Origin: a virus
DNA length: 33,277 bases
Virus record (IMG/VR): IMGVR_UViG_3300021407_000034
Span: 1-33,277 of that record
Strand: one strand, 5' to 3'
Program-made: the position numbers and the translations under genes
In this document: piece by piece, positions 10,157 through 32,462 of the stretch
Layout: every line of letters starts with the position of its first letter
Position numbering within the stretch: the first letter of the stretch is position 1
Notes under the pieces: model-generated
What the model was told of the DNA's origin: nothing
Seen by the model: only the letters and a program-made list of their open reading frames with translations
Databases searched by the model: none

Positions 10157-10170
10157 ATAGCTGGTAAGGT
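10143..10170 (+). promoter_or_regulatory. Repeated promoter-like box, copy 4
   Basis: TTGACAAACGCTAA with -35 at 10143-10148, a 16-bp spacer and TAAGGT (10165-10170). The ATG at 10178 lies 7 bases after the -10, predicting a leaderless mRNA. Confidence 0.7.
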
Positions 10171-10177
10171 GCGCGAC

Positions 10178-11318: not shown

Positions 11319-11340
11319 CCGTGTGGATGGTGAACTATCA

Positions 11341-13832: not shown

Positions 13833-14044
13833 TTTGTCAGTACTGTAAAGAGGACTATGAAGATCGGCCGTCTGCAGCCAAGCTGCATAACAAGGCGTCT
13901 TGGTCATTGGTTATGCCGGATTGCATCAGATTCCCTTGCACGTGTCTCCCACATCAGGGGCCTTTCCATGTTGAGAGTTGCCCAAGACGGACTTATTGGG
14001 ATCGTGAGCTGAATCGTAGTTTAGGAGGCGATGGGCATGGATGA
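13829..14044 (+). CDS. Zinc-finger-like microprotein, 71 aa
   Basis: GTG 13829 in GTGA overlap. CQYCKEDYED at the start, then FPCTCLPHQGPFHVESC. No family assigned. Confidence 0.5.
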   Translation: MICQYCKEDYEDRPSAAKLHNKASWSLVMPDCIRFPCTCLPHQGPFHVESCPRRTYWDRELNRSLGGDGHG

Positions 14045-14252
14045 AATCTGCATCACATGCCGGTATCCAAAGAGCCAGCACAGGGCTATGGGGACGCCGC
14101 TTAGGTTCTGGTGTCCGCCACGACAGACAGAATTCTCGCCGTGTCAGCATAAGAACCGACAAGGGTGGGGCTCGTTCTGTAGCGACGGCACGAGCGATGG
14201 TCGTTCTACCTGCCTAGATTGCGGCCATGTAATCGAATGGAAGCCCACGTGA
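14037..14252 (+). CDS. Zinc-finger-like microprotein, 71 aa
   Basis: ATG 14037 is preferred over 14031: AGGAGG lies 8 bases before it but only 2 before 14031. CITCRYPKSQHRAMG and CLDCGHVIEW form two Cys pairs, with further Cys and His between. Last clearly AT-richer gene of the island. Confidence 0.55.
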   Translation: MDEICITCRYPKSQHRAMGTPLRFWCPPRQTEFSPCQHKNRQGWGSFCSDGTSDGRSTCLDCGHVIEWKPT

Positions 14253-14449
14253 ATCTGCCCGATGACCTCGTCGAGCGCCTGTATCGGCACCTGAGTGCTT
14301 GGGGTAATCCAGATGCCTATCGCGGGCCGAGGACCGGCGGCGTGCTTCAAGGGTGTCCGCGTGGGGCTCCGCCTACGCCAGCGAGAATGGCAGCGATTCA
14401 CAGACTCATGGCCAAACAACTTCGAGACGCAATGGACGACGCCACATGA
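14249..14449 (+). CDS. Hypothetical protein, 66 aa
   Basis: GTG 14249 in GTGA overlap; ATG 14237 upstream is an alternative. LPDDLVERLYRHLSAWGNPD, then a Gly/Pro loop and a helix (ARMAAIHRLMAKQLRDAM). Unknown. Confidence 0.5.
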   Translation: MNLPDDLVERLYRHLSAWGNPDAYRGPRTGGVLQGCPRGAPPTPARMAAIHRLMAKQLRDAMDDAT

Positions 14450-14601
14450 AGCGATTACGTAGATGGCTGTTTCGATGGTGCTTGCGTCACGAGACGGTGT
14501 CGGAGTGGGTGGACGATGTCCTCATCCCCGAGATCCGTCGCGCGCACTCATTCAAGACCGAATCCACGGGTGGCGCGAATCCGATCACCGGTGGCATGTG
14601 A
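14446..14601 (+). CDS. Small basic protein, 51 aa
   Basis: ATGA-coupled. MKRLRRWLFRWCLRHETVSE is a basic amphipathic N-terminus. It ends ...GGM inside the first copy of a 16-bp repeat. Confidence 0.45.
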   Translation: MKRLRRWLFRWCLRHETVSEWVDDVLIPEIRRAHSFKTESTGGANPITGGM

Positions 14602-14602
14602 A
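14587..14602 (+). repeat. Direct repeat ACCGGTGGCATGTGAA, copy 1
   Basis: Exact 16-bp repeat of 14700-14715. Each copy holds the stop of one small gene and the GTG start of the next (catGTGaa). Confidence 0.65.
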
Positions 14603-14714
14603 CGACGACAACGACGGCCGCGCGTGGCTCGTGTTCTTCATTTACGTGCTGGTGGTGGCGACGATCATCGCCGTCGGCTCGTTGCTGTCAAAGTCTCCTA
14701 CCGGTGGCATGTGA
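14598..14714 (+). CDS. Single-span membrane peptide, 38 aa
   Basis: GTG 14598 in GTGA overlap. Acidic start MNDDNDGR, one span (WLVFFIYVLVVATIIAVGSL), end SPTGGM in the second repeat copy. Confidence 0.5.
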   Translation: MNDDNDGRAWLVFFIYVLVVATIIAVGSLLSKSPTGGM

Positions 14715-14715
14715 A
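14700..14715 (+). repeat. Direct repeat ACCGGTGGCATGTGAA, copy 2
   Basis: Second exact copy, 113 bp after the first, at the end of the membrane peptide gene. Confidence 0.65.
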
Positions 14716-14773
14716 ATATGAACGCCGGGTCATTACCTACTTCTTGAGTGAAGTGTGGGCGTGGTGGGGTTAG
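14711..14773 (+). CDS. Possible 20-aa peptide
   Basis: GTG 14711 in a GTGA overlap opens MKYERRVITYFLSEVWAWWG. Only the coupling pattern and the repeat context support it; it may be untranslated. Confidence 0.2.
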   Translation: MKYERRVITYFLSEVWAWWG

Positions 14774-14776
14774 GCT
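14761..14776 (+). promoter_or_regulatory. Possible G-rich promoter-like element
   Basis: GTGGTGGGGT followed by TAGGCT resembles the motif found before the protease gene (21003) and the last gene (32464). It is 131 bp ahead of 14908. The rest of the 14774-14907 gap shows only a weak TTAGACT and a ribosome site (CCAGGAG). Confidence 0.25.
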
Positions 14777-14907
14777 AGTCCAGCCAGCCACGATAAAATT
14801 AGCCCGGTGTGATTATCCCCGCAGATCGCCGACAGGCAGCGGTTCTGTACTTCCACCGGGAGACCCGCAAGTGTTAGACTCCGGCCTTCCTCACCAGGAG
14901 ATCGACC

Positions 14908-15543
14908 ATGAAAAATTTGTTAGTCAAAGCGTTTGTTGCGGCCAGCTTGCTGGTGTTCGCGGGCGCGACCTTTGCGCAAGCCGCTCCCGCACTCCAAGGC
15001 ACCGTCACCTTAACCGCAGTCCCGACTTCGGCCAAGGGCAGCGTCGCCGCAGTCCTGACGTGGTCAACGACGCCCAACGCCAACGGCGTCGCCGCGTCGA
15101 GCTGCACCGCGAGCAACGGCTGGACCGGGACCCTCGCGACTTCCGGTACACAGACCGAGCCCGTGACCACGGTCACGACCACGTACTCGATCACCTGCAC
15201 CTGGAACGACTTGACAGCGGCCATGGTCTGGGTCAATCCGACCAAAGACAGCTCTGGGGCGACGTTGACGGATTTGACGGGTAACAACGTCTACACGGCG
15301 ACGTCGGCCACCGGACCCTGGACATTGGCCAAGGCCCTGACGCCAGCCGTTACCAGCTACCTGTTGACGGGATTGCCGGTCGGCACGAACTACGTCGAGG
15401 TCACGGCAGTGTCCGCGTCAGAGGGCGAGGGTTCGGCTTCGAACGTCGGCAGCAAAGTCAATGGTCCGGCGACGGCCTCGACCACGACCGTGGTCACGGT
15501 GATTGCAGTTCCCTTGGGTCCGAGCACCTTAGTCATCAAATGA
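14908..15543 (+). CDS. Secreted Thr/Ser/Ala-rich beta protein, 211 aa
   Basis: ATG 14908 follows CAGGAGATCGACC. The signal peptide is residues 1-26 (MKNLLVKAFVAASLLVFAGA, ending AQA). The mature part reads as two Ig/FnIII-like beta sandwiches: VTLTAVPTSAKGSVAAVLTW..., two Cys in SSCTASNGW/SITCTW, then YLLTGLPVGTNYVEVTAVSA, a typical FnIII G-strand end. It directly precedes and overlaps the MuF-like gene by 4 nt. An exported protein inside the head operon is unusual; it might decorate virions or the cell surface. Confidence 0.65.
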   Translation: MKNLLVKAFVAASLLVFAGATFAQAAPALQGTVTLTAVPTSAKGSVAAVLTWSTTPNANGVAASSCTASNGWTGTLATSGTQTEPVTTVTTTYSITCTWNDLTAAMVWVNPTKDSSGATLTDLTGNNVYTATSATGPWTLAKALTPAVTSYLLTGLPVGTNYVEVTAVSASEGEGSASNVGSKVNGPATASTTTVVTVIAVPLGPSTLVIK

Positions 15544-16670
15544 AGATTGGACACCGCGCCTTCCTCGACATCGAGCATGCGACAGCGCAGCCGGTGGTCG
15601 AGGCTTGGCGCAAGTACTTTTTGGGGATCGAGCACAACCTCAAGCGTGCAATTAATGTCAAAAATTGGACATTAGCCGGGTCCATTGTCGATTCCATCAA
15701 CACCGAGCACCTGGTCCTGGACCACGCCAAGCGCACGAACTTGTTGGCGACCGCCGCGCTGTTGCTCGGCGTCTCGCGGGTGCGCGAGATCCGCGACTAT
15801 CGGCTCAGCCCCGACAACGTCAGATCCGTGGGTAACGGCGTCACACAGTGGGGCTTTGTCGTGGGCCGGAACCTGGCGGCGACCGTGCGCAAGCGCCTAC
15901 ACGTCAAGATCGCGGCCATTGAACACGGGGTCAGGCAGAAGCCGCAGATCATCAAAGACGAGATCGAGCAAGAGCTGCAAACCGAGTCCCCCGAGATTTG
16001 GATGGAGGTCGAGGACCTGATGGAAGACGCCACGGAGTTCGGGGTGTCGATGTCCACGCTCGCCGCGAGCCTACTGACATCCCGGCTCTCGAACTACGGC
16101 GCGTTGAGCACGATGTACAGTGCAGGCGCCGAGCGCTACATGATCAGTGCGATCCTCGACGACAACACCTGCGACGTATGCGAGGCCCTAGATGGTCAAA
16201 TATTCCCGGTCGCCGACGGCGTCCGCCAAGCCACCGCCGTCATGGATGCCGAGGACCCAGACAGTCTCGCCGACATCGCGCCTTGGCCGGATCAAGACGA
16301 GGACAGTGTCAATTCTATACAGGACGCCGATGCTCAGGACCTGGTTGACGCTGGCCTACAACTGCCGCCGTACCATCCTTTTTGCCGGTGTATTACAGTG
16401 GATGTGGATGACGAAGAAGTGGCCGACGACAGCGCGAGTGCCGATTCCGCCACCGAAGAAGCGGAGACCGATGCCCCCGACTTAAGCGCGTCGGTGCTTG
16501 CGACGCTTTTGGGGTTTGCGACGGGGATCGGGGTCGGGGTAGCGCTCGGCGGCGGTGACCAGGAGCTGGAAGCTGCCGTAGATCAGGGCGAAGACCAGGA
16601 TGCCTACGACGAGGGTGAACCGGCCCAGCAACCCAAGAAGCGCAAGAAGCCGGTCGATCACACTCTGTAG
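15540..16670 (+). CDS. MuF/SPP1 gp7-like minor head protein, 376 aa
   Basis: ATGA-coupled to the secreted gene. The body is helical. At residues 197-225 comes the MuF signature AERYMISAILDDNTCDVCEA with C211xxC214 and DGQIFPV, completed by LPPYHPFCRC (275-284). This Cys/His arrangement marks MuF head-morphogenesis proteins, which sit at the portal and can be ejected with DNA. The C-terminus adds an acidic linker, a hydrophobic Gly/Ala stretch (SASVLATLLGFATGIGVGVA) and a basic KKRKK tail, which are extra to a minimal MuF. It lies 13.8 kb downstream of the portal gene rather than next to it. A diverged palindrome is at 15647. Confidence 0.8.
   Translation: MKIGHRAFLDIEHATAQPVVEAWRKYFLGIEHNLKRAINVKNWTLAGSIVDSINTEHLVLDHAKRTNLLATAALLLGVSRVREIRDYRLSPDNVRSVGNGVTQWGFVVGRNLAATVRKRLHVKIAAIEHGVRQKPQIIKDEIEQELQTESPEIWMEVEDLMEDATEFGVSMSTLAASLLTSRLSNYGALSTMYSAGAERYMISAILDDNTCDVCEALDGQIFPVADGVRQATAVMDAEDPDSLADIAPWPDQDEDSVNSIQDADAQDLVDAGLQLPPYHPFCRCITVDVDDEEVADDSASADSATEEAETDAPDLSASVLATLLGFATGIGVGVALGGGDQELEAAVDQGEDQDAYDEGEPAQQPKKRKKPVDHTL
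15647..15660. repeat. Palindrome variant TGCAATTAATGTCA
   Basis: Twelve of 14 bases match TGCAATTAATTGCA. It lies in the MuF-like gene and is read as GCA-ATT-AAT, the same frame as the copy at 1897. Confidence 0.45.
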
Positions 16671-16687
16671 TAACATAACGCATCCCT

Positions 16688-16716
16688 TTGACAAACGCTA
16701 ACTGGAGAGGTACGCT
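16688..16716 (+). promoter_or_regulatory. Repeated promoter-like box, copy 5
   Basis: TTGACAAACGCTAA, 17-bp spacer, then TACGCT (16711-16716). It is the only box lying wholly between genes here; downstream is a CATAGTAGA stretch also seen after the copy at 18497, then GAGGAG and the ATG at 16752. Confidence 0.7.
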
Positions 16717-16751
16717 ACAGCATAGTAGACCTTTCAACTGAGGAGTGTGTC

Positions 16752-17111
16752 ATGAAATTGCGACAACTGTTGATACCGATTGGGATGGTGGTGATGATGA
16801 TCGTGGCCACGGGTCCGGCGCGCGCCGCAGGGCCGCTGGCAGATGCCCTCGACGACTACGACTTCGCCAAGAAGGTGCTGGTGTCTCACGTCAATCTCAG
16901 GGACCGCGCGTGGACGTCGAACGTCAACGCCATGGACCGAGCCGAGTTCTGTAGCGCCTACCACCGCGTGATCCGTGCGTTCTTCAACATGCGCGACAGC
17001 GACGGCTACACGGCGTGGTTGAGCAAGACCCTGGGCTCAGCTTTCGACCTGGACTACGTCAATCAAGGCAGTGTCGAAGTTTACATATGCCATAGTTCAG
17101 GCGGCTATTGA
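16752..17111 (+). CDS. Secreted hypothetical protein, 119 aa
   Basis: ATG 16752 follows TGAGGAGTGTGTC. The signal peptide is about residues 1-25 (MKLRQLLIPIGMVVMMIVAT, ending ARA). The mature part is helical with two Cys (EFCSAYHRVIRAFFNMRDSD and YICHSSGGY). No family recognised; probably periplasmic. Confidence 0.6.
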   Translation: MKLRQLLIPIGMVVMMIVATGPARAAGPLADALDDYDFAKKVLVSHVNLRDRAWTSNVNAMDRAEFCSAYHRVIRAFFNMRDSDGYTAWLSKTLGSAFDLDYVNQGSVEVYICHSSGGY

Positions 17112-17119
17112 CAGGATGT

Positions 17120-17167
17120 TTGACAAACGCTAAACTGAAGCCGAATCGAAACAGCATGGAGACGAAA
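17120..17167 (+). promoter_or_regulatory. Repeated box copy 6 plus ATGGAGA leader
   Basis: TTTGACAAACGCTAAA at 17119-17134 but no clear TANNNT at 16-18 bp (17 bp gives GAATCG). The leader ACAGCATGGAGACGAAA follows, with the SAS-like ribosome site shared with 18560, 18882 and 19496. It could be a weaker promoter or an operator site. Confidence 0.5.
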
Positions 17168-17506
17168 ATGAATGTAGCGAAAGAGATCCTGGCCCAGCTC
17201 GGCGGCAACAAGTTTTGCGCGATGACCGGGGCCAAGCAGTTTGTGGGCACGGCCAACGAGCTGCGGTTCAAGTTACCGGGAGGCGGTGGTTTCGCGACCT
17301 CCGGCATCAACTACGTCGTCGTGCGCCTGGAAGCCAGCGACACCTACACCGTCGAGTTCTACCGCGTGCGCGCGATGAAGATGACTTTAGTCAGCAAACA
17401 CCAGGACGTTTACAACGACGCGCTCCAGAGCGTGTTCACGATGGCCACGGGCCTGTACACGAACCTGGGGAAGATTGTGATCAATGGAGGCCAGTTATCG
17501 GCTTGA
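17168..17506 (+). CDS. Conserved phage/plasmid hypothetical protein (AKEILAQLGGNKF family), 112 aa
   Basis: ATG 17168 is chosen, 7 bases after GGAGA; the in-frame ATG at 17156 overlaps that ribosome site. NVAKEILAQLGGNKFCAMTG, then NELRFKLPGGGGFATSGINY and DTYTVEFYRVRAM match a small protein I recall from many phages and plasmids. Its function is unknown to me. Confidence 0.7.
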   Translation: MNVAKEILAQLGGNKFCAMTGAKQFVGTANELRFKLPGGGGFATSGINYVVVRLEASDTYTVEFYRVRAMKMTLVSKHQDVYNDALQSVFTMATGLYTNLGKIVINGGQLSA

Positions 17507-17519
17507 TGAGGAGATTGAG

Positions 17520-17675
17520 ATGAGTAGCAGCAGATGGTTTTGCGGTTGGTTCGTGTATCGGGTAGGCAAGAACTACTACGCGACCAAGGCCGGGGCCAGC
17601 AGATTGACAGCATCCAGCAACTTCGGAATACGTCGGCAGATCGTTGCCCGGCGTCGGGAGGAATGCCTTGCCTAA
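17520..17675 (+). CDS. Small basic protein, 51 aa
   Basis: ATG 17520 after GAGGAGATTGAG. SSSRWFCGWFVYRVGKNYYA then ASSNFGIRRQIVARRREE. Aromatic N-terminus and basic C-terminal helix; unknown. Confidence 0.5.
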   Translation: MSSSRWFCGWFVYRVGKNYYATKAGASRLTASSNFGIRRQIVARRREECLA

Positions 17676-17859
17676 CAACACCTTCAAGGGCTGGGAGGTC
17701 GTGTATAACGGCTTCGCGCCGATCACCGGTCGCTACAAAGCCCGACGCCACGGCGTGACGATGTGCGCGGGTACTCGCGCGGGCCTGGAGTCGATGATCA
17801 CCAAGCGCAACCAAGACGAGCGCGAACGCCTTCACCTAGAAGCCGGACACCGACCATGA
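17668..17859 (+). CDS. Hypothetical protein with TTG start, 63 aa
   Basis: TTG 17668 is 6 bases after GGGAGGA and overlaps the previous gene by 8 nt; no ATG in this frame fits. PNNTFKGWEVVYNGFAPITG, RYKARRHGVTMCAGTRAGLE and a basic helix suggest a small alpha/beta protein. Unknown. Confidence 0.5.
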   Translation: MPNNTFKGWEVVYNGFAPITGRYKARRHGVTMCAGTRAGLESMITKRNQDERERLHLEAGHRP

Positions 17860-17996
17860 AAATCGTCATCTATCACGGCATCGAATGGGGCAGCCTCGTC
17901 GAGCGCGGCTGGGTCACTCACGAAGTCAGCGAGCCCTTCAACGGCGTTCGCATGGCCACCATGGTCTATGTGCCTCGTGGCTATTGGCGGATGTGA
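17856..17996 (+). CDS. Hypothetical protein, 46 aa
   Basis: ATGA-coupled. MKIVIYHGIEWGSLVERGWV then GVRMATMVYVPRGYWRM reads like a small beta protein. Unknown. Confidence 0.5.
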   Translation: MKIVIYHGIEWGSLVERGWVTHEVSEPFNGVRMATMVYVPRGYWRM

Positions 17997-18460
17997 AAGT
18001 CGTGAAATTAATTGCACTTCTGGCCGTAGTCTTGGTGTCCGTATCACATGCTGGCGTCCAGCAACCGGCAACCGATCCCGTCGTGTGCCTGGCGCGGAAC
18101 ATCTACTTCGAGGCGCAGGGCGAGGGCTACGAAGGCCGAGTCGCCGTCGCCCAGGTCACGATCAACCGCGCCATCACCATCGACCGCGTCTGCGATACCG
18201 TGTACTTCAAGAAGGTCAACGGCGCGGGTCACAAGGTCGCTGCGTTTTCATGGACCCTGGGCGCAGCCTGGCGCGCACGCGGGCCGATCAACGCCCGCGT
18301 CATGGATCAGTGTCAGGCCATTGCCCGCGCCGTGCTGGCGGGCGATATACGCGGGCATCTGGCGAACAACGTCACCTACTACCACACTCTAGGTTGCAAC
18401 CCAGGGTGGCACCACCACTTCGTCTGCCGCATCGGCAACCACCTGTTTTACTCGGGGTGA
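17993..18460 (+). CDS. Secreted SleB/CwlJ-type cell-wall hydrolase (Hydrolase_2), 155 aa
   Basis: GTG 17993 in GTGA overlap; a second GTG at 18002 is possible. The signal peptide is about residues 1-20 (VKVVKLIALLAVVLVSVSHA). The domain starts CLARNIYFEAQGEGYEGRVA, with the catalytic-type Glu at E40 in YFEAxGE, followed by VAQVTINRA, FSWTLG, AIARAVLAG, NVTYYHT, NPGW and IGNHLFY, all in SleB order. These enzymes cleave peptidoglycan glycan strands. With a Sec signal it could be the phage endolysin needing no holin channel, or a virion/periplasmic muralytic enzyme. No spanin pair or certain holin is adjacent. Confidence 0.8.
   Translation: MKVVKLIALLAVVLVSVSHAGVQQPATDPVVCLARNIYFEAQGEGYEGRVAVAQVTINRAITIDRVCDTVYFKKVNGAGHKVAAFSWTLGAAWRARGPINARVMDQCQAIARAVLAGDIRGHLANNVTYYHTLGCNPGWHHHFVCRIGNHLFYSG
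18006..18016. repeat. Half-palindrome AATTAATTGCA in signal-peptide codons
   Basis: Encodes LIA in the SleB-type signal peptide with the same bases as at 3243. Confidence 0.6.
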
Positions 18461-18496
18461 CATAATCCTGGGCACGATCAAAACTGTGAACTAGGT

Positions 18497-18526
18497 TTGA
18501 CAAACGCTAATTGACTGTGGCATAGT
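18497..18526 (+). promoter_or_regulatory. Repeated promoter-like box, copy 7
   Basis: TTTGACAAACGCTAATTG with -35 at 18497-18502. The best -10 is CATAGT (18521-18526) after 18 bp, a weaker fit than other copies. GTGAACTAGG upstream and the CAGCATGGAGATGGAAATG leader downstream are shared with the copy at 19433. Confidence 0.55.
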
Positions 18527-18559
18527 AGAGCCGTGGTCAGAAACAGCATGGAGATGGAA

Positions 18560-18772
18560 ATGAAGAACTGGGAAATTGAGATCATCAAGCACGGTGCCCG
18601 CTACTGGGGCTTCGTGGTTCGGAACCCAGAAGGCGGCAGCTACGGCAGCCACCGGCAGTCGATGATCGCTGCTAGGACTGAAGCCTTCCGCAGCGTTCCC
18701 CACGGCGCGAACTTTTCGCTCGTGATCAACGGCAAGACCATGGTGTCAGCCAGTCAGGAGTCAGCGTCATGA
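18560..18772 (+). CDS. Hypothetical protein, 70 aa
   Basis: ATG 18560, six bases after GGAG, is preferred over in-frame ATGs 18548 and 18554 that overlap the ribosome site. MKNWEIEIIKHGARYWGFVV then GSYGSHRQSMIAARTEAFRS is a small alpha/beta protein. Unknown. Confidence 0.6.
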   Translation: MKNWEIEIIKHGARYWGFVVRNPEGGSYGSHRQSMIAARTEAFRSVPHGANFSLVINGKTMVSASQESAS

Positions 18773-18867
18773 GCGCCGAAGTCCTGGTGTTTCGGTTTCC
18801 TGCCTACGCCTGCGCCTTGAGCCTCGCGTATGCGCTGTGGACCGTCGTCAAGTGTCTTGTGTTTTAA
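18769..18867 (+). CDS. Single-span membrane peptide, 32 aa
   Basis: ATGA-coupled. MSAEVLVFRFPAYACALSLA then YALWTVVKCLVF is hydrophobic throughout. The leader of the next gene starts at its stop codon. Confidence 0.45.
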   Translation: MSAEVLVFRFPAYACALSLAYALWTVVKCLVF

Positions 18868-18881
18868 GCATGGAGATGAAA

Positions 18882-19238
18882 ATGGAAAGACAATCATTTG
18901 CAGAGGCCGTGGCCGCGTTTTTGGCCTACGCCAGCAACGACTACCACGTGCAGTGGAAAGGTCACAACGCCAGCTTCGAGGTCGTCGTCGAGAAGGCCGG
19001 ACGCCGGTACACTCGCGTGATCCACCAGGAGCGGGACGCCAACGGCAAAGCCTGCCATCGCGGTTCCCACAGCTTTATCGTGATGGAGGACTACTTGACT
19101 CCCCAGGGCCTCAGCCTCAAGCAGGGCGACGTCCTCAAGTGTGCGAGCTGGAAGGCACCGGCCATGAATTTCGTGCGCTGCAACGTCTTCAACCAAGCCA
19201 GTTTCAAGGGTCATGTGCAGTGGACGGGCGTGTCATGA
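18882..19238 (+). CDS. Hypothetical protein, 118 aa
   Basis: ATG 18882 after AGCATGGAGATGAAA, the shared leader, here without a TTGACA box. SFAEAVAAFLAYASNDYHVQ, a beta-rich middle (HNASFEVVVEKAGRRYTRVI) and CASWKAPAMNFVRCNVFNQA. Could be a small enzyme-like fold, but no motif is diagnostic. Confidence 0.6.
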   Translation: MERQSFAEAVAAFLAYASNDYHVQWKGHNASFEVVVEKAGRRYTRVIHQERDANGKACHRGSHSFIVMEDYLTPQGLSLKQGDVLKCASWKAPAMNFVRCNVFNQASFKGHVQWTGVS

Positions 19239-19465
19239 TCCGCGTGTACTTCGGCAAGGCCGGAAGCGTGGAGTGCGTCTGCCACGAGTACGGCGACGGC
19301 TATCCGTGCGGGCCGCATCTGTGCTGCCAGCATAACGGCCAGAGCCAGTCGTCGCCGTGCGTCATCACGCGCACACGCGCGACCTGGGACGCGATTCGCG
19401 CTGCGCACATCAAAAAATGTGAACTGGATCGTTTGACAAACGCTAATTGTGGTGTTACTGTATAG
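19235..19465 (+). CDS. Cys-rich hypothetical protein, 76 aa
   Basis: ATGA-coupled. VECVCHEYGDGYPCGPHLCC gives five Cys and His in a row typical of metal-binding knuckles, with two later Cys. The last residues (LTNANCGVTV) come from the promoter box at 19433 being read as coding. Confidence 0.5.
   Translation: MIRVYFGKAGSVECVCHEYGDGYPCGPHLCCQHNGQSQSSPCVITRTRATWDAIRAAHIKKCELDRLTNANCGVTV
19433..19461 (+). promoter_or_regulatory. Repeated promoter-like box, copy 8
   Basis: TTTGACAAACGCTAATTG, -35 19433-19438, 17-bp spacer, TACTGT (19456-19461). It overlaps the 3' end of the preceding gene. The leader AATAGCATGGAGACGGAA leads to ATG 19496. Confidence 0.75.
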
Positions 19466-19495
19466 GCGTGGTTCGGAAATAGCATGGAGACGGAA

Positions 19496-19726
19496 ATGAA
19501 AAAGTTCAAAGTCAAGATGGTGGTCTCGGAGTCCGGGAACGCGGTTTTCGAGGCATTCGCCACCGCCAAAGAAGCCAAAGCCTTCGCCGCTGAGCGGCTG
19601 GCGGCGGGCGTGAAAGACGCCATCTACCTCGGCAATACCACGCAGAAGGCGAAAGACGCCTTGATGCGCTCGATGGGCCTAGTCAAGGTCCGGGGCGCGG
19701 TCTCGGGCTCGGTCTACTGGGAGTAA
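19496..19726 (+). CDS. Hypothetical protein, 76 aa
   Basis: ATG 19496 is 6 bases after GGAGA; the ATG at 19484 lies over that site. MKKFKVKMVVSESGNAVFEA then Ala/Lys helix (TAKEAKAFAAERLAAG). It looks like a compact beta-alpha protein. Unknown. Confidence 0.6.
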   Translation: MKKFKVKMVVSESGNAVFEAFATAKEAKAFAAERLAAGVKDAIYLGNTTQKAKDALMRSMGLVKVRGAVSGSVYWE

Positions 19727-19729
19727 GCC

Positions 19730-19957
19730 ATGGCCAAACTGAGTTACCAATTGACTCTCAAGGGCGCGCGGATGTCCCGCACCAAGAACATGAAGTTGGC
19801 CAGAAACCCGTCACTGAATTCGGCATCGCGGGCGTTCTATGTGACGCGAGCGCGGCGCGCGAATCGTCAGATAGTCAAACACCTGCGTCGGCTCACGATA
19901 GCGACGCGGTTGATAAAGGCAGCAGCAGCGCGGGTGCGCGCGGAGTACGCGTCATGA
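19730..19957 (+). CDS. Very basic small protein, 75 aa
   Basis: ATG 19730 after GGGAGTAAGCC. Rich in Arg/Lys (RTKNMKLARNPSLNSASRAF, RARRANRQIVKHLRRLTIAT). Likely nucleic-acid binding by charge; no family. Confidence 0.5.
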   Translation: MAKLSYQLTLKGARMSRTKNMKLARNPSLNSASRAFYVTRARRANRQIVKHLRRLTIATRLIKAAAARVRAEYAS

Positions 19958-20217
19958 GCATCGAGCTGAAGAAAAATTCGATCTACAGAGACGGCTGGGG
20001 CCGCGAGGTCTGGATCATCGGCGAGACCAAGAATTACCCGCAGTGGTATTGGTCGGTGCAGGGTGACTGGTACGAACGCGACACCGGCAAGATGCTGGGC
20101 TACCGCCGCGTCATGGTCAAGGACGAGCGCGGATTCTTGCAGGAGTCCGGCGAGCACTACGTCCACGCCGACGGCTACAGCAAGAACCTGGTGAGCTACG
20201 TGGGAGAGTACAAATGA
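19954..20217 (+). CDS. Hypothetical protein, 87 aa
   Basis: ATGA-coupled. Trp/Tyr-rich beta protein: NSIYRDGWGREVWIIGETKN, YPQWYWSVQGDWYERDTGKM. No motif assigned. Confidence 0.55.
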   Translation: MSIELKKNSIYRDGWGREVWIIGETKNYPQWYWSVQGDWYERDTGKMLGYRRVMVKDERGFLQESGEHYVHADGYSKNLVSYVGEYK

Positions 20218-20372
20218 CCTTCGAACAGTGGTGGGCTGAGCAGACATTCAATCCGCGATTTGGTAGGAATGATTTGGATGCGATCAAAGGCATAGCCAGA
20301 GCCGCATTCGCTGCCGGGCGCGCGGCGGAGCGCGAAGCCTACGCTGTTCGCGCCAACGGAGACCGAGCATGA
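20214..20372 (+). CDS. Small phage helical protein, 52 aa
   Basis: ATGA-coupled. MTFEQWWAEQTFNPRFGRND then IARAAFAAGRAAEREA. The FEQWWxEQ...A..AW/AGR pattern recurs in many small phage proteins of unknown role. Confidence 0.55.
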   Translation: MTFEQWWAEQTFNPRFGRNDLDAIKGIARAAFAAGRAAEREAYAVRANGDRA

Positions 20373-20752
20373 GCATCGAACGCATTCAGCCCGCCAGCGG
20401 GCAATACAACAAGGCCCCGACAGGGTTCCGCGAGATCACGGAGGGCGACTTCGCCCAGTCCGCGTTTTTCACCTACGGCTTCATGGGCGTCGAGCACCGC
20501 CAGATCCTGAATTGGCCACAACCGAAAGCGCCGATGCTGCACGCGCACATGTACCACCTGCACGACGGCACGGGCTTCGCCATGGTCAACGACTACTGGG
20601 GCAAAAAGGTCCGGTACTTCGTCTTCGGCTGCGAGCACGAGTGGGGCGGTGAGCTGACCGAGGCCGAGAAATCGGTTCCCGTCTATAACTGCACGACCAA
20701 GTACAAGTGCAAACTCTGCGGCTACTTCCAGCAGATCGACAGCAGCGATTGA
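20369..20752 (+). CDS. Hypothetical protein with C-terminal Cys cluster, 127 aa
   Basis: ATGA-coupled. The middle is His/Tyr-rich (LHAHMYHLHDGTGFAMVNDY). The end has C-T-T-K-Y-K-C-K-L-C-G-Y, a likely zinc site together with an upstream GCEHEW. Unknown. Confidence 0.55.
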   Translation: MSIERIQPASGQYNKAPTGFREITEGDFAQSAFFTYGFMGVEHRQILNWPQPKAPMLHAHMYHLHDGTGFAMVNDYWGKKVRYFVFGCEHEWGGELTEAEKSVPVYNCTTKYKCKLCGYFQQIDSSD

Positions 20753-20768
20753 CACGTGCTCGCGCGCG

Positions 20769-20782
20769 TGCAATTAATTGCA
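20769..20782. repeat. Palindrome TGCAATTAATTGCA (full copy 2), upstream of an ATG
   Basis: Perfect palindrome between genes, ending one base before ATG 20784 and occupying the place of a ribosome site. A TTGACA lies at 20749-20754, so the TTAATT centre could serve as a -10 at 19 bp, though that spacing is long. Confidence 0.7.
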
Positions 20783-20783
20783 G

Positions 20784-21002
20784 ATGGCGTGGACCTGGGC
20801 AACATCACTCAAACCTCAAGACGTGTGCAACGTCTGCCGCACGTGGCTTAAGACCCAAAACGGGAACGTCGTCCGATTCAACGAAAAGCTGTGGTGCGTT
20901 CCCTGCATCTTGGACGCCGGAACCAAGGCCCTAGGCAGTTCCCCGGAACCGGCCGTGGACTTTGACTTCAGTAAAGTCTGGGCGGGGATGCCCGGTCCCT
21001 GA
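20784..21002 (+). CDS. Zinc-ribbon microprotein, 72 aa
   Basis: ATG 20784 has no ribosome site; the palindrome sits immediately upstream. CNVCRTWL and CVPCILD form a C4 zinc ribbon about 24 residues apart. The C-terminus is acidic. It is the last gene of the second accessory block. Confidence 0.55.
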   Translation: MAWTWATSLKPQDVCNVCRTWLKTQNGNVVRFNEKLWCVPCILDAGTKALGSSPEPAVDFDFSKVWAGMPGP

Positions 21003-21019: not shown

Positions 21020-21052
21020 TGTACCAAGCCGATTTATGACTTGGACCGCCCG

Positions 21053-21673
21053 ATGCACTCCGACACCGTTCAGATCAAGAAGCTAGACGCTGCCCGCCAA
21101 ATGATTTGGGCCGAGGTCTATGTGCCCATGGTCCCGGACTCGCAAGGCGACTTCTGCACTGCCGCCGAAATCGAGAAGACGGCGCACAATTTCATGCGCG
21201 GGCAGCGCATGTACAACGTAGACACCGAGCACAATCTCCAGAAAAACGAGACCTGTGTCATCGAGAGTTTCATCGCGCGCCCCGGCGATCCCGAGTTCCA
21301 GCCCGGGGCCTGGGTTGTGGGCATGCACGTGGTCGATCCCAAGACGTGGGCGATGATCGAGAAGGGCGAGATCAACGCGCTGTCGATGTACGGCAGCGGC
21401 ACGCGTGATGACGCGGTCATCGAGATCGAACTACCGGACGACGGCATCATCAAAGGCGAGACCCACGACTTCGGCGGCCACAAGCACACCTACGACCTCC
21501 AGTTCAATGAGGAAGGCAAGGTCGTGAAGGGCGAGACCAACGAGGTCACGGTCAACGGCGTCTCGCACAAGCACATCATCAAGGGCGGCACGATTACCGA
21601 GCCCGCTGCCGGTCACAGCCATCGCTATTCAGTATCTGACGCGCTCGCAGCGGTCATGGGAGCAACGAAATGA
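21053..21673 (+). CDS. XkdF-like prohead maturation protease (S78-type), 206 aa
   Basis: ATG 21053 is chosen (TTG 21041 is in frame). The first 120 residues match the XkdF/Peptidase_S78_2 pattern: AEVYVPMVPDSQGDFCTAAE, NVDTEHN with likely catalytic H60, VESFIARPGDPEF..., GAWVVGMHVVDPKTWAMIEK and EINALSMYG with likely nucleophile S111. Such proteases cleave scaffold and capsid N-termini during maturation. The C-terminal 80 residues add a His/Gly-rich beta stretch (THDFGGHKHTYDL, GVSHKHIIKGG, AAGHSHRY) of unknown role. It is ATGA-coupled to the 616-aa gene and 9 kb upstream of the capsid gene. Confidence 0.8.
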   Translation: MHSDTVQIKKLDAARQMIWAEVYVPMVPDSQGDFCTAAEIEKTAHNFMRGQRMYNVDTEHNLQKNETCVIESFIARPGDPEFQPGAWVVGMHVVDPKTWAMIEKGEINALSMYGSGTRDDAVIEIELPDDGIIKGETHDFGGHKHTYDLQFNEEGKVVKGETNEVTVNGVSHKHIIKGGTITEPAAGHSHRYSVSDALAAVMGATK

Positions 21674-23520
21674 CGTATTTGACACGCAGACTCCGGCTCG
21701 TGAAAGCCGACAAACCCAAGGACGCGCCCGCCGAGTCCCCGGGCCTCAAGGTGACGACCGACGACAACCCCGTCGGCGGCGTCCACGCGCACAAGATCGC
21801 GGGGCAGCTCATCGGGCACACGGTGAACGCCGTGGGCAAGGGCTGGACAGCGGTCCCGTTTTCTGGCCAGATCAAAGGCGGCTTCAACAAGCACGCCGAC
21901 GCCCAGCAGTACCTGGCCGATCAGCACGCGGAGAACATCAAAAACGATGCGCTCATGGAGCAGGCGGCGAAGCAGGCGGGGGGCAAGGTCAAGAAGGACG
22001 ATATCGAGAAGGGCGGACCAGGTAGCGGCCCGCGTAAGGGGGGTGGAAGCGGGGATTGGCATAGTAAGAGCAGACTCGACGGTGAGTCTGACGGCGCCTA
22101 CGCTGCGCGTCGTATCGCCCAGGAGCATATGAAAGACAACCCCGGCATGACCAAAGAACAAGCCATGGCTCATGAGAGCAAGAATTTTCAGACTGCCGTT
22201 GGCAAGCTATTCAAGGACGGCAACACCGAGGAAAATGCACCGGGCAACACCAAGGCCGCGAGCAGCTCGACGACGTCAACGTCGGTGGTATCGAGCACGA
22301 CCTCGACCGAAGATCAATTCCAGAAGTGGGACGACTATGACCCAGAGTACGTGGCAAAGCGGGAATTTACTGCGGCGAAACGCAAGGCAGACGCAAAGAG
22401 TGGCGCAGCTATGCCGGGAGGCGGCTACCCAATCGAGAACGTGTCCGACTTGCACAACGCCATCGAAGCCTATGGCCGTGCGAAGAATCCGGCTAAAACT
22501 AAGGCCCATATCAGATCGCGGGCTGCTGCACTAGGCGCGACCTCCGCCCTCCCCGATTCCTGGGGCAAGAGCGAGGACCTCGCCGAGATCGTGGCGAAGA
22601 TCGAGATGGAAACCGAGCGCGAGGCCGTGCAAAAGGACTGGCAGAAGTTCGACGAGGAGCGGGCGAAGGGCGGGCACTCGACGCAGGGCGTTGATCACGC
22701 GGTTTCCGGGTCTACTTACGGCGGCACGAATAGGCCCGGTGGCTCTCAATACGGTGCCGCCAAACAGGAGCCTGGCGCCTCGGGTTCCTACTCGAAAGAG
22801 AACATGGACAAGTATGTCGCCGGACTCCACGACGTCTCCGAGAAGCACCGCGCGGCCAATGGCGGCGGCGAAGCCTGGAAGAAGACGTTCGAGACCCGCG
22901 AAGGCGACAAGTGGAACAAAGTCATCGCGGTCTCCGGGAATTCACGCAGCGTCCACAGCTTCGTCAACCGCGACACCGGCGACATCCACTACCCCGCAGG
23001 CGCAAAGGGGCCGACTAAGCAGGTTCGCGGCAACATCGGCAGTCCGGCCAACGGCATGGAGGCCATTGGCAACAGCGGCCACGTGCGCTACCTCAAGAGC
23101 GACGGCATCAACGAGTGGTTGGCGGCGGCGCTGATCAAGGACGACGAGGAAGTGGGCGACGGCGAAGGCGACGAAGCCGGGTCCATCAAAAAGGATTGGG
23201 CGAAGTTCGACGCCGAGCGCACCAACGGTCACGCAAAAACGGCCCTGGGCCATTCCCTGGATACGCATGATGGTCGCGCCATCGGCAACAGCCGCAAAGC
23301 CATGGAGGCCACGGCCAAGGCCGGGGAAAAGAGCTATGGCATGAACCACGAGGCGGCGGCGCATGCGCACCTGGCAGCAGCGAAATACGCCAGTGGTCGG
23401 CAGGGCGACGCATTCAAGAAGCTGGCCGATGCCCACACCGCGCTGGCCAACGCGCACATCCCCCACGCCGCAGGCTCGAATTTCAACATTGATCACGCAG
23501 AACTTGACAAAGAGGATTAA
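21670..23520 (+). CDS. Modular head-associated protein, 616 aa
   Basis: Several segments can be told apart. Residues 1-110 are alpha/beta. A tag KGGPGSGPRKGGGSG is at 114-128, a type common in phage head proteins. A Ser/Thr linker spans 197-213. The motif GGYPIENVSDLHNAIEAYGR, IRSRAAALG, LPDSW (251-298) recurs in phage head/protease-linked proteins. At 322-336 and 508-521 are two copies of KDWxKFDxERxxGH. Between them, residues 375-476 form a domain with SRSVHSFVNRDTGDIHYPAG and KQVRGNIGSPANG, seen by recall in other phages. An Ala/His helix (AAAHAHLAAAKYASGR) closes. It probably belongs to the virion interior; processing by the neighbouring protease is inference. Confidence 0.7.
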   Translation: MTYLTRRLRLVKADKPKDAPAESPGLKVTTDDNPVGGVHAHKIAGQLIGHTVNAVGKGWTAVPFSGQIKGGFNKHADAQQYLADQHAENIKNDALMEQAAKQAGGKVKKDDIEKGGPGSGPRKGGGSGDWHSKSRLDGESDGAYAARRIAQEHMKDNPGMTKEQAMAHESKNFQTAVGKLFKDGNTEENAPGNTKAASSSTTSTSVVSSTTSTEDQFQKWDDYDPEYVAKREFTAAKRKADAKSGAAMPGGGYPIENVSDLHNAIEAYGRAKNPAKTKAHIRSRAAALGATSALPDSWGKSEDLAEIVAKIEMETEREAVQKDWQKFDEERAKGGHSTQGVDHAVSGSTYGGTNRPGGSQYGAAKQEPGASGSYSKENMDKYVAGLHDVSEKHRAANGGGEAWKKTFETREGDKWNKVIAVSGNSRSVHSFVNRDTGDIHYPAGAKGPTKQVRGNIGSPANGMEAIGNSGHVRYLKSDGINEWLAAALIKDDEEVGDGEGDEAGSIKKDWAKFDAERTNGHAKTALGHSLDTHDGRAIGNSRKAMEATAKAGEKSYGMNHEAAAHAHLAAAKYASGRQGDAFKKLADAHTALANAHIPHAAGSNFNIDHAELDKED

Positions 23521-24147: not shown

Positions 24148-25059
24148 ATGTCGTTCTGGTTCCGTCAACGCCACGTACTGAGGAAGTACGACCCCGATCA
24201 GCCCCGAGACGCCCACGGGCGCTGGGGCAGCGGTGGCGTGTCCGTCAAAGAAGCTGAGGGCTTAATCGCGACGGATAGGGCCATCGAGCAGCGGGCGACG
24301 AAGATCGTCCAGAACTACGACCAAGCCAAGTCCGACTACAACCAGCTCAAGGATTCGAGAGGTGGTTCGATCTTGAACACGGACACCGCGCGCGAGCTAT
24401 CGCCTGATTACATGAAAGACCGGTCGCGCGCGGCGGCGGTCCACGAACCCAGCTCCGCGTTCATCAAAGAGCTGTATAAGGAAAAGCTGTCGGAGGCCCC
24501 GACCGGCGACAAACTCCCGCTGGTCCTGTTCACGGCGGGCGGTACGGGCGCGGGCAAGAGCACGGCGCTCGACAGCATTCCCGAGATGAAGGCGCTGAGC
24601 GATCACGCGCAGATCGTGTACGACACCAACATGAACACTTATGAGAGCGCGCTCAACAAGGTCAACCAAGCCCTGGACGCGGGCAAGGAAGTCCACATCA
24701 CCATGGTCCAGCGCGACCCCGTGGACGCGTTGGTGAACGGTGCCCTGAGCCGCGCCACGCGTCAGGAGAAGGACTTTGGCAGCGGTCGCACGGTGCCGCT
24801 GGCCGAGCACGTGAAGACGCATATCGGGAGTTCGACGACCGTCGAGCGCCTGGCCGAGCACTTCAAGAACGACGACCGCGTACAATTCGACTTAATCGAC
24901 AACAGCAACGGCAAAGGCGGAGCCAAGCTGGTGCCGATGTCTGAAATCAAGCACTACGACCGTGACGAGACTATCGCGCGCGTGCGTACTGCGTTAGAAT
25001 CGGAGCATGAAAATGGGCGAATCTCAGACCGGACCTACAAAGGCTTCAAAGACTATTGA
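24148..25059 (+). CDS. Zeta-toxin-like P-loop kinase with N-terminal phage tag, 303 aa
   Basis: ATG 24148; an upstream extension is less likely. Residues 12-27 (RKYDPDQPRDAHGRWG) are a tag motif common on phage head-associated proteins. From residue 123 the kinase core follows: LPLVLFTAGG and Walker A GGTGAGKST (131-139), IVYDTNMNTY, VHITMVQRDPVDALV, RTVPLAEHVKTH and VQFDLIDNSNGKGG. This order matches zeta toxin/PezT-like kinases, which phosphorylate UDP-N-acetyl sugars; substrate here is unknown. A 51-aa gene overlaps its 3' end. Presence among capsid genes with a head-protein tag suggests packaging in virions (inference). Confidence 0.7.
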   Translation: MSFWFRQRHVLRKYDPDQPRDAHGRWGSGGVSVKEAEGLIATDRAIEQRATKIVQNYDQAKSDYNQLKDSRGGSILNTDTARELSPDYMKDRSRAAAVHEPSSAFIKELYKEKLSEAPTGDKLPLVLFTAGGTGAGKSTALDSIPEMKALSDHAQIVYDTNMNTYESALNKVNQALDAGKEVHITMVQRDPVDALVNGALSRATRQEKDFGSGRTVPLAEHVKTHIGSSTTVERLAEHFKNDDRVQFDLIDNSNGKGGAKLVPMSEIKHYDRDETIARVRTALESEHENGRISDRTYKGFKDY

Positions 25060-25168
25060 CCCGGCGATGAAGGAGCGGTTGCGCGAATTTCATCGCAAGA
25101 TCGGGCAGTCGATGGTCGATACCTTGAACAAACGCAGCACCGAAAAAGTGCCACCGGCGAATTCGTGA
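25013..25168 (+). CDS. Small helical protein overlapping the kinase gene, 51 aa
   Basis: ATG 25013 lies 7 bases after GGAG; the ATG at 25007 in the same frame is too close to it. The product includes PTKASKTIDPAMKERLREFH then RKIGQSMVDTLNKR, mostly helix. It overlaps the kinase 3' end by 47 nt. Position would allow an antitoxin role, but no epsilon/PezA similarity is seen. Confidence 0.5.
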   Translation: MGESQTGPTKASKTIDPAMKERLREFHRKIGQSMVDTLNKRSTEKVPPANS

Positions 25169-26485: not shown

Positions 26486-27553
26486 ATGTACACACCGAAG
26501 GACGTCATCGACGAACCCCTGCACGTTGTCACGTGTATCACCAACACCGTTCGCTACAAAAGCCGGTGGAAACTGTACCGAGACTTTCAGCGCCATGTGC
26601 GCGAATCCGGCGCGATCCTGCACACGGTCGAAGCGGCGTTCGGCGAGCGCGATTGGGCACTTGAGGAGCACGCGGTGCACGACGGCAGCCCCAACATGCC
26701 CTGGAAAAGCGCGGGTCCGCCAAACGTCCCCAATCAAGGCCACGGTGTCTACACGCAATTGCGCATGGACCATTTGCAGGAAATCTGGCTCAAGGAAAAT
26801 CTGCTGAACATCGGCGTGAGTCGGCTGCCCGCGAACTGGAAGTACGTGGCGTTTATCGACGCCGACGTCCTCTTTACGCGCCCGGATTGGGTCTCCGAGA
26901 CCCTGCACCAGCTCCAGCACTATCACGTCGTGCAGATGTTCAGCGACGCCATCGACCTGTTCCCCGACGGCAGCCCGCAGCCCGGTGTCCAGCAAAAGGG
27001 CCATGCCTGGTGTCATGTCCACGGGATCTTGAACGATGCCGTCAACACGAAAACCGATGCCTACGGCCCCAAAGACACGAAATTGAGTGTGTCGATGAAG
27101 GGAGGCACGATGTACCGTCATCCGGGATTCGCTTGGGCATGGAGGCGGGAGGCGTTCAACGCCGTCGGCGGCTTGATGGACAAGGTCATCCTCGGCAGTG
27201 CCGACTGGCACATGGCCTGGGGATTGCTCGGCCGCATCGAGGAGACAATCAGTCGCCCGTTGACCGATGATTACCGCAAAATGTGCATGCTCTGGCAGCG
27301 GCGGGCCGTCGAGCACATCAAGTACAACGTCGGCTACGTCGCGGGCACGATCATGCACCAGTGGCACGGGCCGAAGCGGGCGCGCGGATACGCGACGCGG
27401 TGGAAGATTTTGGCCGACAACCACTACCAGCCGTCGATGGACGTGAAAAACGACTGGCAAGGGATCTTGCGGCTGACTGACACCAAGCCGCGCTTGCGCG
27501 ATCAGTGCCGTCAGTACTTCCGTCAGCGCAACGAAGACAGCATCGACCCATGA
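26486..27553 (+). CDS. Phage glycosyltransferase-like protein (GT-A DxD), 355 aa
   Basis: ATG 26486 after GGAGACCGAATAGA. The N-terminus has LHVVTCITNTVRYKSRWKLY as in GT-A type enzymes that start with a Rossmann strand. At 120-130 comes YVAFIDADVLF with D125-A-D127, the metal/nucleotide-sugar motif. Later GGTMYRHPGFAWAWRREAFN and ILGSADWHMAWGLLGR fit the acceptor half. It probably transfers a sugar from a nucleotide sugar onto DNA, a virion protein or a host glycan; the acceptor is unknown. Coupled to a small basic gene at 27550. Confidence 0.7.
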   Translation: MYTPKDVIDEPLHVVTCITNTVRYKSRWKLYRDFQRHVRESGAILHTVEAAFGERDWALEEHAVHDGSPNMPWKSAGPPNVPNQGHGVYTQLRMDHLQEIWLKENLLNIGVSRLPANWKYVAFIDADVLFTRPDWVSETLHQLQHYHVVQMFSDAIDLFPDGSPQPGVQQKGHAWCHVHGILNDAVNTKTDAYGPKDTKLSVSMKGGTMYRHPGFAWAWRREAFNAVGGLMDKVILGSADWHMAWGLLGRIEETISRPLTDDYRKMCMLWQRRAVEHIKYNVGYVAGTIMHQWHGPKRARGYATRWKILADNHYQPSMDVKNDWQGILRLTDTKPRLRDQCRQYFRQRNEDSIDP

Positions 27554-30126: not shown

Positions 30127-31095
30127 ATGACGAGCAATGCAGAACTGATTCGGAAGGCTGATCTAGTCATCAGCGAACTGAGTTCCAACGGCGGTCTCTT
30201 GAACCCGGAGCAGAGCAATGCGTTCATTCGCAAGTTGCTCGTGGCCCCGACGATGCTCGCGCAAGTCCGGCGCGTGACGATGTCGGCTCCGATTCGGAAG
30301 ATCAACAAAATTTCCTTCGCATCGCGCATTTTGAATGCTGGTTCAGGCGGCACGGGTTCGTACCCGACTGCCCTGGCCAGCAACCAGCGCGCGGCTGCGA
30401 CCACCGAGCAGATTCAGCTCCAGACTCACGAAGTCATCGCTGAAATCCATCTGCCGTATGACGTCATCGAAGACAACATCGAAGGCGGCAACGTCGGTAC
30501 CTTCAACGAAGGCGGTAACCCGCCGATGGCCGGTGGCTTCCGCGACACCATCGTGACGTTGATTGCCGAGCGCGTGGCCATCGACCTCGAAGAACAGGCC
30601 CTGAACGGGGACACTTCGAGCGCCGATCCCTACCTCGCGCAGACGAATGGCTACCTGAAACTGATTCAGAGCAACATCGTCGATGCCGGTGGTCAACAGA
30701 TCAATCGCACGATCCTGAAGAACGCGATGAAGACGCTGCCCTCGCAGTATCGTCGGAACCGTGCGGCCCTCGCCCACTTCGTGTCAACCGAGCAAGAGAT
30801 CGAGTATCGCGACACCATCGCGAACCGCGAGACCTCGCTGGGTGATGCACAGCTTCAGAGCACGGCTCCGGTATACGCGGCAGGCGCACCGGTGGTCGGC
30901 GTGCCTCTCATGCCGGGATCGAGCGGCATTCTCACCAACCCCCTCAACCTGATCTTCGGTGTCCAGCGCGACATCATGATGGAAACCGACAAGATCATCA
31001 CGCAGCGCGTCTACGTCATCGTGGTCACGGCTCGTGTCGCCATCCAGATCGAGGAAGAACTGGCGGCGGTGGAGTTGATCAACCTCGCGACCTAA
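30127..31095 (+). CDS. Major capsid protein, HK97-fold, 322 aa
   Basis: ATG 30127 after GCGAGGATATT. The N-arm ELIRKADLVISELSSNGGLL, NPEQSNAFIRKLL is typical of capsid proteins I recall with ...GGLLNPEQ..., followed by APIRKINKISFASRIL, an E-loop-like region, and a P-domain/A-domain with LPYDVIEDNIEGGN, LIAERVAIDLEEQALNGD and VGVPLMPGSSG. It forms the icosahedral shell. Followed by an intrinsic terminator. Its N-arm is copied in the 2H phosphoesterase tail. Confidence 0.85.
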   Translation: MTSNAELIRKADLVISELSSNGGLLNPEQSNAFIRKLLVAPTMLAQVRRVTMSAPIRKINKISFASRILNAGSGGTGSYPTALASNQRAAATTEQIQLQTHEVIAEIHLPYDVIEDNIEGGNVGTFNEGGNPPMAGGFRDTIVTLIAERVAIDLEEQALNGDTSSADPYLAQTNGYLKLIQSNIVDAGGQQINRTILKNAMKTLPSQYRRNRAALAHFVSTEQEIEYRDTIANRETSLGDAQLQSTAPVYAAGAPVVGVPLMPGSSGILTNPLNLIFGVQRDIMMETDKIITQRVYVIVVTARVAIQIEEELAAVELINLAT

Positions 31096-31552: not shown

Positions 31553-31747
31553 GTGTCGCTTATCGTCGCGCACCGGCACTGCCGAGTGTGCGGGGACGAG
31601 TTCGTGCCGAAAACGGCAAAGCAAGAGGTCTGCACCATAGGGTGTGTGTACCACGATCCCCGGCATCATCGCGGAGCCGAGAATCGCGAGCACCAACGCG
31701 AGGTCTGGGAGCTACGGAAGCACAAGAATGGAAATTGGGGACGCTGA
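31553..31747 (+). CDS. Zinc-finger microprotein, 64 aa
   Basis: GTG 31553; ribosome site weak. HCRVCGDEFVPKTAKQEVCT, I-G-C-V-Y-H-D-P-R-H-H gives a C4/H-type zinc finger like small HNH-associated or FCS-type fingers, but no HNH core follows. Overlaps the next gene by 20 nt. Confidence 0.55.
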   Translation: MSLIVAHRHCRVCGDEFVPKTAKQEVCTIGCVYHDPRHHRGAENREHQREVWELRKHKNGNWGR

Positions 31748-32462
31748 CTTCGACTCAGCGGCTGCACTGCTCCAGTCGCTTTCCCAGAACGTGGACGAGT
31801 TCACGCTTGCCCGCAACCGTAAGACAAACGCTAAATTGCCGAGGCTGCATCAGGGCTGGCGTGGCATCGAAGAAGTGGCGTTGCTCGGCGGTGGGCCGTC
31901 GATGATCTTGGACTGGGAGTTGATCAAGGACCTGAAGGGCAGAGGCGTGACGATTGCCACGGTCAACGGTGCCCACAAGTGGGCGAACGACTCCCTGTTC
32001 TGGCCCAGCTTCCAGTTCGTGGTCGATGCGCGCCCGCTCAACGCCAAATTCACGCATCCGCCGACGCCCGGGACCTGGTATGTGGTCTGCGATCACTGCG
32101 ATCCCGCGATCATCGACGGCATACCCCCCGGTCATCTCTATGTGTGGTCGGTCAAGGACTTCAAATGCGGGAGCACGGTGATGTTGTGCGCGATCCCCAT
32201 CCTCAAGTGGATGGGCGTCAAGAAGCTGCATTTGTTCGGGTTCGACTCGTGCATGCCCTATGACGAGTGCCACCACGCATACCCGCAGCCGGAGAACGAC
32301 GCCGACCCCGCGATTTGGACCGAGATCAATGATCGCTGGTTTTTGTGCACGCGGTGGATGATGCAGCAGGCGGAGGAGTTCCTGGAACTGCGGCGGGATT
32401 GGGGCGACTTCACGATCTACGGCAACGGGTTGCTCGCGCACCTGATGAAAACCACGCGCTGA
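31728..32462 (+). CDS. MptE/DUF115-like protein, 244 aa
   Basis: ATG 31728, 8 bases after GGAAG; upstream extension lacks a ribosome site. EEVALLGGGPSMILDWELIK (residues 49-68, GGGPS 54-58), VTIATVNGAHKWA, FQFVVDARPL and CGSTVMLCAIPILKWMGVKK, LHLFGFD follow the DUF115/6-hydroxymethylpterin-pyrophosphokinase-like (MptE-like) fold. Phage and bacterial relatives are often linked to glycan or nucleotide-sugar steps; the reaction is unknown here. GACAAACGCTAA, the core of the promoter box, lies inside at 31823. Confidence 0.65.
   Translation: MEIGDADFDSAAALLQSLSQNVDEFTLARNRKTNAKLPRLHQGWRGIEEVALLGGGPSMILDWELIKDLKGRGVTIATVNGAHKWANDSLFWPSFQFVVDARPLNAKFTHPPTPGTWYVVCDHCDPAIIDGIPPGHLYVWSVKDFKCGSTVMLCAIPILKWMGVKKLHLFGFDSCMPYDECHHAYPQPENDADPAIWTEINDRWFLCTRWMMQQAEEFLELRRDWGDFTIYGNGLLAHLMKTTR

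Follow-up and report, generated by a model that had tools for sequence, protein, structure and literature searches.

The ng_zeta1/ng_epsilon1 pair of Neisseria gonorrhoeae (6EPG/6EPH/6EPI) is among the closest described systems to the locus reported here. In ng_zeta1, a topological rewiring puts the catalytic Asp56 before the P-loop, and uridine diphosphate (UDP)-sugars are phosphorylated at the C4'-OH; ng_epsilon1 binds as an extended, non-globular chain with helices covering the adenosine triphosphate (ATP) site, and streptococcal epsilon/PezA-type antitoxins are three-helix bundles (PMC5923241). Injected zeta-like kinases that would weaken the wall had been predicted by Iyer et al. in 2017 within polyvalent proteins and MuF fusions (PMC5512222). 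In this study, a zeta-toxin-family kinase gene and a small gene overlapping its 3' end were analysed in the virus record IMGVR_UViG_3300021407_000034, the whole stretch of 33,277 nucleotides (nt) being called the window, to which all coordinates refer (Table 1). The kinase belongs to the ng_zeta1 subclass and carries an N-terminal tag that in viral contigs joins portal/MuF head domains or earlier modules to effectors, and the small gene is real, conserved and coding. With somewhat more confidence than doubt, the system is taken to be a virion-delivered kinase effector with a translationally coupled inhibitor.

That a zeta-like kinase might be injected and weaken the wall was already the 2017 prediction; what appears to be new is the placing in the ng_zeta1 subclass, the survey of the tag and, most of all, the overlapping gene. 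The protein described here differs in being a standalone, tagged member of the ng_zeta1 subclass, and the portion of the 2017 paper drawn on here describes neither the tag nor an overlapping partner and gives the prediction without an experimental handle (PMC5512222), whereas the overlapping gene offers a direct two-gene test. Effector enzymes among head components that are predicted to enter with the DNA are also represented by T4 Alt and the MuF-toxin fusions; the enzyme here is a different one and is coupled to a small partner gene, and its place in the virion is a prediction. The AvrRxo1-ORF1/ORF2 pair of Xanthomonas likewise combines an injected kinase (as this one is presumed to be) of related fold with a small partner, but the Xanthomonas protein belongs to another subfamily, is delivered as a type III effector and acts on a different substrate, nicotinamide adenine dinucleotide (NAD).

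Family, fold and active site of the kinase

The Pfam profile Zeta_toxin (PF06414) matched the protein of 303 amino acids (aa) with E 1e-10 and 41.9 bits, above the curated cut-off of 22.3, the match being split in two (profile positions 10-34 and 90-180). In the PDB sequence search ng_zeta1 was the sole match, with E 4e-7 for the single protein and 2.7e-18 for a 52-row profile. The AlphaFold model had a mean predicted local distance difference test score (pLDDT) of 91.4, and its low-confidence part was the tag region (blocks covering residues 1-30, mean pLDDT 39-59). In structural comparison the model matched ng_zeta1 (6eph) with Z 28.7 and a root-mean-square deviation of 2.3 over 255 residues, followed by AvrRxo1 (Z 12.5) and streptococcal zeta (Z 10.9). 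The earlier note on this DNA had proposed a Zeta/PezT-type kinase; the zeta family is borne out by the profile, the sole PDB match and the modelled structure, but the PezT-type part did not hold, since the subclass is that of the ng_zeta1 UDP-sugar 4'-kinase. A P-loop from an unrelated kinase family, the outcome named there as contrary to the proposal, was not found, as profile and structure both point to zeta.

The hallmark of the ng_zeta1 subclass, a rewired topology with the catalytic Asp N-terminal to the P-loop, was found in the alignments and in the structural match. D79, K137, R202 and R214 were invariant across the 52-row alignment; R214 aligned with Arg181 of ng_zeta1, and R202 is probably the counterpart of Arg175, so that the likeness to ng_zeta1 comprises the rewired fold, the Asp before the P-loop and the conserved Lys and Arg. 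Unlike ng_zeta1, the kinase in the window is phage-borne and head-tagged (with relatives embedded in large phage proteins) and has no C-terminal oligonucleotide/oligosaccharide-binding (OB) domain. Streptococcal epsilon/zeta and PezAT share with it the P-loop UDP-sugar kinase superfamily and the Pfam family, but their topology differs, with Z 10.9 and below. By analogy with ng_zeta1, the substrate is probably a UDP-sugar, phosphorylated at the C4'-OH.

Two other assignments were rejected. Thymidylate kinase, the annotation of a relative in the phage genome MW202577, was ruled out by structure and profile, and generic P-loop, polynucleotide and adenylate kinases fell far behind in the structural comparison, at Z about 9 or below.

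The N-terminal tag and the head-gene setting

The tag pattern QPRDxxGRW occurred once in the window and in none of 100 shuffles, and at least 119 stretches were found in a scan of viral contigs; chance is excluded by the shuffles and by more than a hundred phage occurrences. The 69 segments preceding the tag in tag-bearing open reading frames (ORFs) most often matched portal families (about 22 hits) and MuF (13 hits), with some Acb1. The 127 segments following it matched ADP-ribosyltransferases (13), Zeta_toxin (10), topoisomerase IB (5) and ART-PolyVal (4), as well as nuclease toxins, glutamine deamidases, GNATs, PBECR, InPase, pesticin and SAM lyase. As a control, 127 ORFs lacking the tag were taken from these loci; they gave terminases, portals, capsids and methylases, and the post-tag effector families were not found among the 25 listed of 45 for this control. 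This agrees with the earlier suggestion that the tag marks head-associated proteins. The literature search for the tag found nothing relevant. The tag could be used for finding further virion-delivered effectors.

The kinase gene lies, as previously described, between the genes of an XkdF-type protease and the capsid protein. The latter is 54% identical to its counterpart in the Stenotrophomonas Delepquintavirus DLP_3, where just two genes separate protease and capsid; the kinase region therefore looks like an accessory insertion into a conserved head module.

A similar setting was observed among viral relatives, for which the best 80 of 302 loci were read. Standalone relatives (274-395 aa) were next to terminase or portal genes where tested, and one tagged standalone relative (L142) had terminase on one side and portal on the other. 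In embedded relatives the kinase domain lies within proteins of about 660-3,104 aa, many of polyvalent type. Two tagged multi-module proteins (L143 and L144; 1,454 and 1,536 aa) carry the tag or a tag variant before successive modules, including a kinase with 44-47% identity to that in the window, whereas the window protein has a single kinase domain with the tag. The family is almost missing from bacteria (3 of 369 genomes of one class, seed included), and among plasmids one record had a relative, with 25% identity. When the distant kinase of MW202577 served as the starting point of a scan, no relatives emerged. The C-terminal ends of L143 and L144 share a tail, SATSGLTAYGNT, followed by a Lys/Arg-rich stretch.

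The small gene across the kinase 3' end

The small ORF spans the kinase 3' end in the +1 frame and was absent from the earlier note's account of the locus. Across the kinase end, the +1 frame was open in 52 of 53 non-redundant relatives, compared with 16 for the +2 frame and 3-29 for windows within the kinase. The pattern was the same whether the kinase has its own stop or forms part of a long ORF; in the latter case the small gene lies out of frame within a long polyvalent gene. Cross-validation profiles, built solely from sequence past the kinase end for the solo and embedded sets, transferred between the sets (E<0.01) in the +1 frame only, with hits in 12 of the 14 solo genes and in 14 of the 39 embedded ones. 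The ratio of nonsynonymous to synonymous change (pN/pS) past the kinase stop was 0.20 in pairs of standalone genes, indicating purifying selection. The ATG was present in 49 of 53 relatives (9-34 of 53 in control windows), and a Shine-Dalgarno (SD)-like motif preceded 46 of 83 starts (55%), compared with 19 of 214 (9%) at other places in the kinase and a background of 36 of 452. In a second set of relatives, obtained with a different query, the ORF was kept in 27 of 29 distinct tails and the other two look frame-disrupted. Over all embedded pairs, the mean pairwise scores of 29.4, 29.5 and 30.2 for frames 0, 1 and 2 did not separate the frames; the closer of these pairs point to +1, and their frame 0 reads as a linker rich in Gly, Ala and Arg. 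A chance overlap is ruled out by the open frame, profile transfer, pN/pS, SD enrichment and the second set.

With this conserved overlapping partner gene, the system is a toxin with a probable producer-cell immunity or chaperone protein and not a lone effector. The family has a length of about 58 aa and no convincing Pfam or PHROG match. The model, folded from an alignment that excluded one database-record row and three other divergent rows, showed an extended segment and one helix (pLDDT 78), which resembles the non-globular chain of ng_epsilon1; the partner here differs from ng_epsilon1 in that its gene overlaps the end of the kinase gene in the +1 frame, and no similarity between the two was detectable. 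By this analogy, the small protein probably shields the producer cell, as an antitoxin or a chaperone. If inhibitory, it would explain how a wall poison could be produced without killing the factory cell. In MW202577, the one public phage genome checked, the small gene is without annotation, so that conserved genes of this kind, lying out of frame within large virion genes, may be widely overlooked.

An ORF of 38-52 aa was also observed in the +1 frame over the 3' end of tagged ORFs with zeta kinases of canonical topology at six loci (L018, L021, L035, L051, L121 and L125), so small partners coupled in this way may be a general feature.

Proposed mechanism, alternatives and neighbouring genes

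In the mechanism that we favour, the kinase would be made late, together with the head genes, and recruited to the procapsid by its N-terminal tag. The small protein, starting inside the kinase 3' end in the +1 frame, would attach to the kinase through an extended stretch and a single helix. As suggested by ng_epsilon1, it would hold the enzyme inactive in the producing cell, or keep it folded so that it can be loaded. Once injected along with the DNA, the kinase would meet no fresh inhibitor in the recipient and, using ATP, would phosphorylate UDP-amino sugars, probably at the C4'-OH, so that peptidoglycan and lipopolysaccharide precursors would be drained and host wall synthesis would stall early. 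The earlier proposal of packaging and injection is supported by the gene context, the fusions in relatives and the precedent of the predicted polyvalent kinases (PMC5512222); virion delivery itself is what we infer from these, and a role in early takeover or superinfection block may follow. The wider proposal is that an immunity gene lies in the +1 frame across the end of virion-delivered zeta toxins, is kept nested in giant virion proteins and protects producers while recipients get the toxin alone, and that QPRDxxGRW generally marks interchangeable head cargo modules; we regard this as evenly balanced between right and wrong.

Several observations weigh against the favoured mechanism. The UNAM-contacting residues of ng_zeta1 (UNAM, UDP-N-acetylmuramic acid) are partly lost: of those touching its lactyl group, Lys59 is replaced by Arg82 and Asn75 falls in a gap, so the substrate may differ; this bears on sugar preference and not on the fold. 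The small-protein profile (49 rows) had no match in the PDB up to E 10, ng_epsilon1 included, although for so short a protein a distant kinship with epsilon or ng_epsilon1 may exist. About 7 of the 10 post-tag zeta matches came from one related group with canonical topology, the tag survey counts rest on the at least 119 stretches listed, and most relatives are untagged, which shows that the kinase family can do without the tag. The tag itself may be a docking signal, a cleavage site or a linker.

Among the alternatives, the one that survives best, though unlikely, is that the small protein does not inhibit the kinase but helps to load it as a chaperone, or serves as its adaptor in the virion. 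The same conservation data would apply, and an assembly role is possible since the small gene is retained wherever the kinase sits in polyvalent-type proteins; toxin-type enzymes, however, usually need inhibition during production, and ng_epsilon1 is a similarly non-globular inhibitor (PMC5923241). It is rather improbable that the pair is an ordinary toxin-antitoxin module acting unpackaged in the infected or lysogenic cell, for maintenance or superinfection exclusion, with its place among head genes incidental. A toxin-like kinase with an overlapping small gene would fit such a module, and zeta toxins of marine viromes have been read as agents of post-segregational killing in two papers (PMC8940887, PMC5332604), but the head tag, the position between protease and capsid, and the relatives inside long multi-domain phage proteins and beside terminase or portal argue otherwise. 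We also doubt, more firmly, that an injected kinase is a counter-defence enzyme instead of a wall poison, with a different small molecule as its target, for instance a nucleotide signal or, as for AvrRxo1, NAD. AvrRxo1 is the second-best fold, the UNAM-contact residues are partly lost and an Acb1 gene directed against the cyclic-oligonucleotide-based anti-phage signalling system (CBASS) lies in the same window; against this, ng_zeta1 is far closer in both structure and profile. That the +1 ORF is an alternative kinase C-terminus reached by ribosomal frameshifting is very improbable: the relative frame is constant and the kinase end is always overlapped, but the overlap length varies and the conserved ATG and SD enrichment indicate independent initiation.

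Table 1. Positions of the kinase, the small gene and associated features in the window
Feature	Position	Strand	Evidence
Zeta-toxin-family kinase gene, 303 aa, ng_zeta1-like subclass	24148..25059	+	PF06414, PDB profile, AlphaFold model, structural Z
N-terminal head-protein tag RKYDPDQPRDAHGRWG, residues 12-27, predicted disordered	24181..24228	+	Sequence, contig survey, model
D79 codon, aligned with catalytic Asp56 of ng_zeta1, upstream of P-loop	24382..24384	+	Alignments; invariant in 52 rows
Walker A P-loop GGTGAGKST, from residue 131; K137 aligned with ng_zeta1 K115	24538..24564	+	Sequence and alignments
R202-to-R214 stretch, both Arg invariant	24751..24789	+	Alignments
GGAG, Shine-Dalgarno-like, 7 nt before ATG 25013	25002..25005	+	Sequence; enrichment test
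Small gene, +1 frame, 51 aa (53 aa from ATG 25007), candidate antitoxin or chaperone	25013..25168 (or 25007..25168)	+	Conservation, pN/pS, SD
XkdF-type head maturation protease	21041..21673	+	Peptidase_S78_2 3e-24; phrog_15223 protease
Major capsid / virion structural protein	30127..31095	+	phrog_1623 9.7e-94; 54% identical to DLP_3 major capsid protein

Between portal and protease, about 18 kb (window about 2400-20900) contained mostly small ORFs without assignment, where DLP_3 has one gene. The Acb1-type anti-CBASS protein (1733-2410, +; PF23474, 3e-26) overlaps the end of the portal gene, and a MuF-domain head protein (15540-16670, +; PF04233, 2.4e-8) is distant from it. The capsid gene is flanked by genes for a weak glycosyltransferase-2-like protein (26486-27553; E 0.21) and an MptE-like protein (31644-32462; 8.8e-10). 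A 616-aa protein (21670-23520, +) has a DUF7717 domain, a GGPGSGP motif and a repeated KDW.KFD.ER motif, which is perhaps another kind of module tag. Similar N-termini were observed in the head-region proteins starting at 24148, 25178, 23524 and 21670 (MSFWFRQRHVLRKY, MSFWTRMRKMDARKY, MSYFNRTRR and MTYLTRRLR, respectively), perhaps representing a common N-terminal signal.
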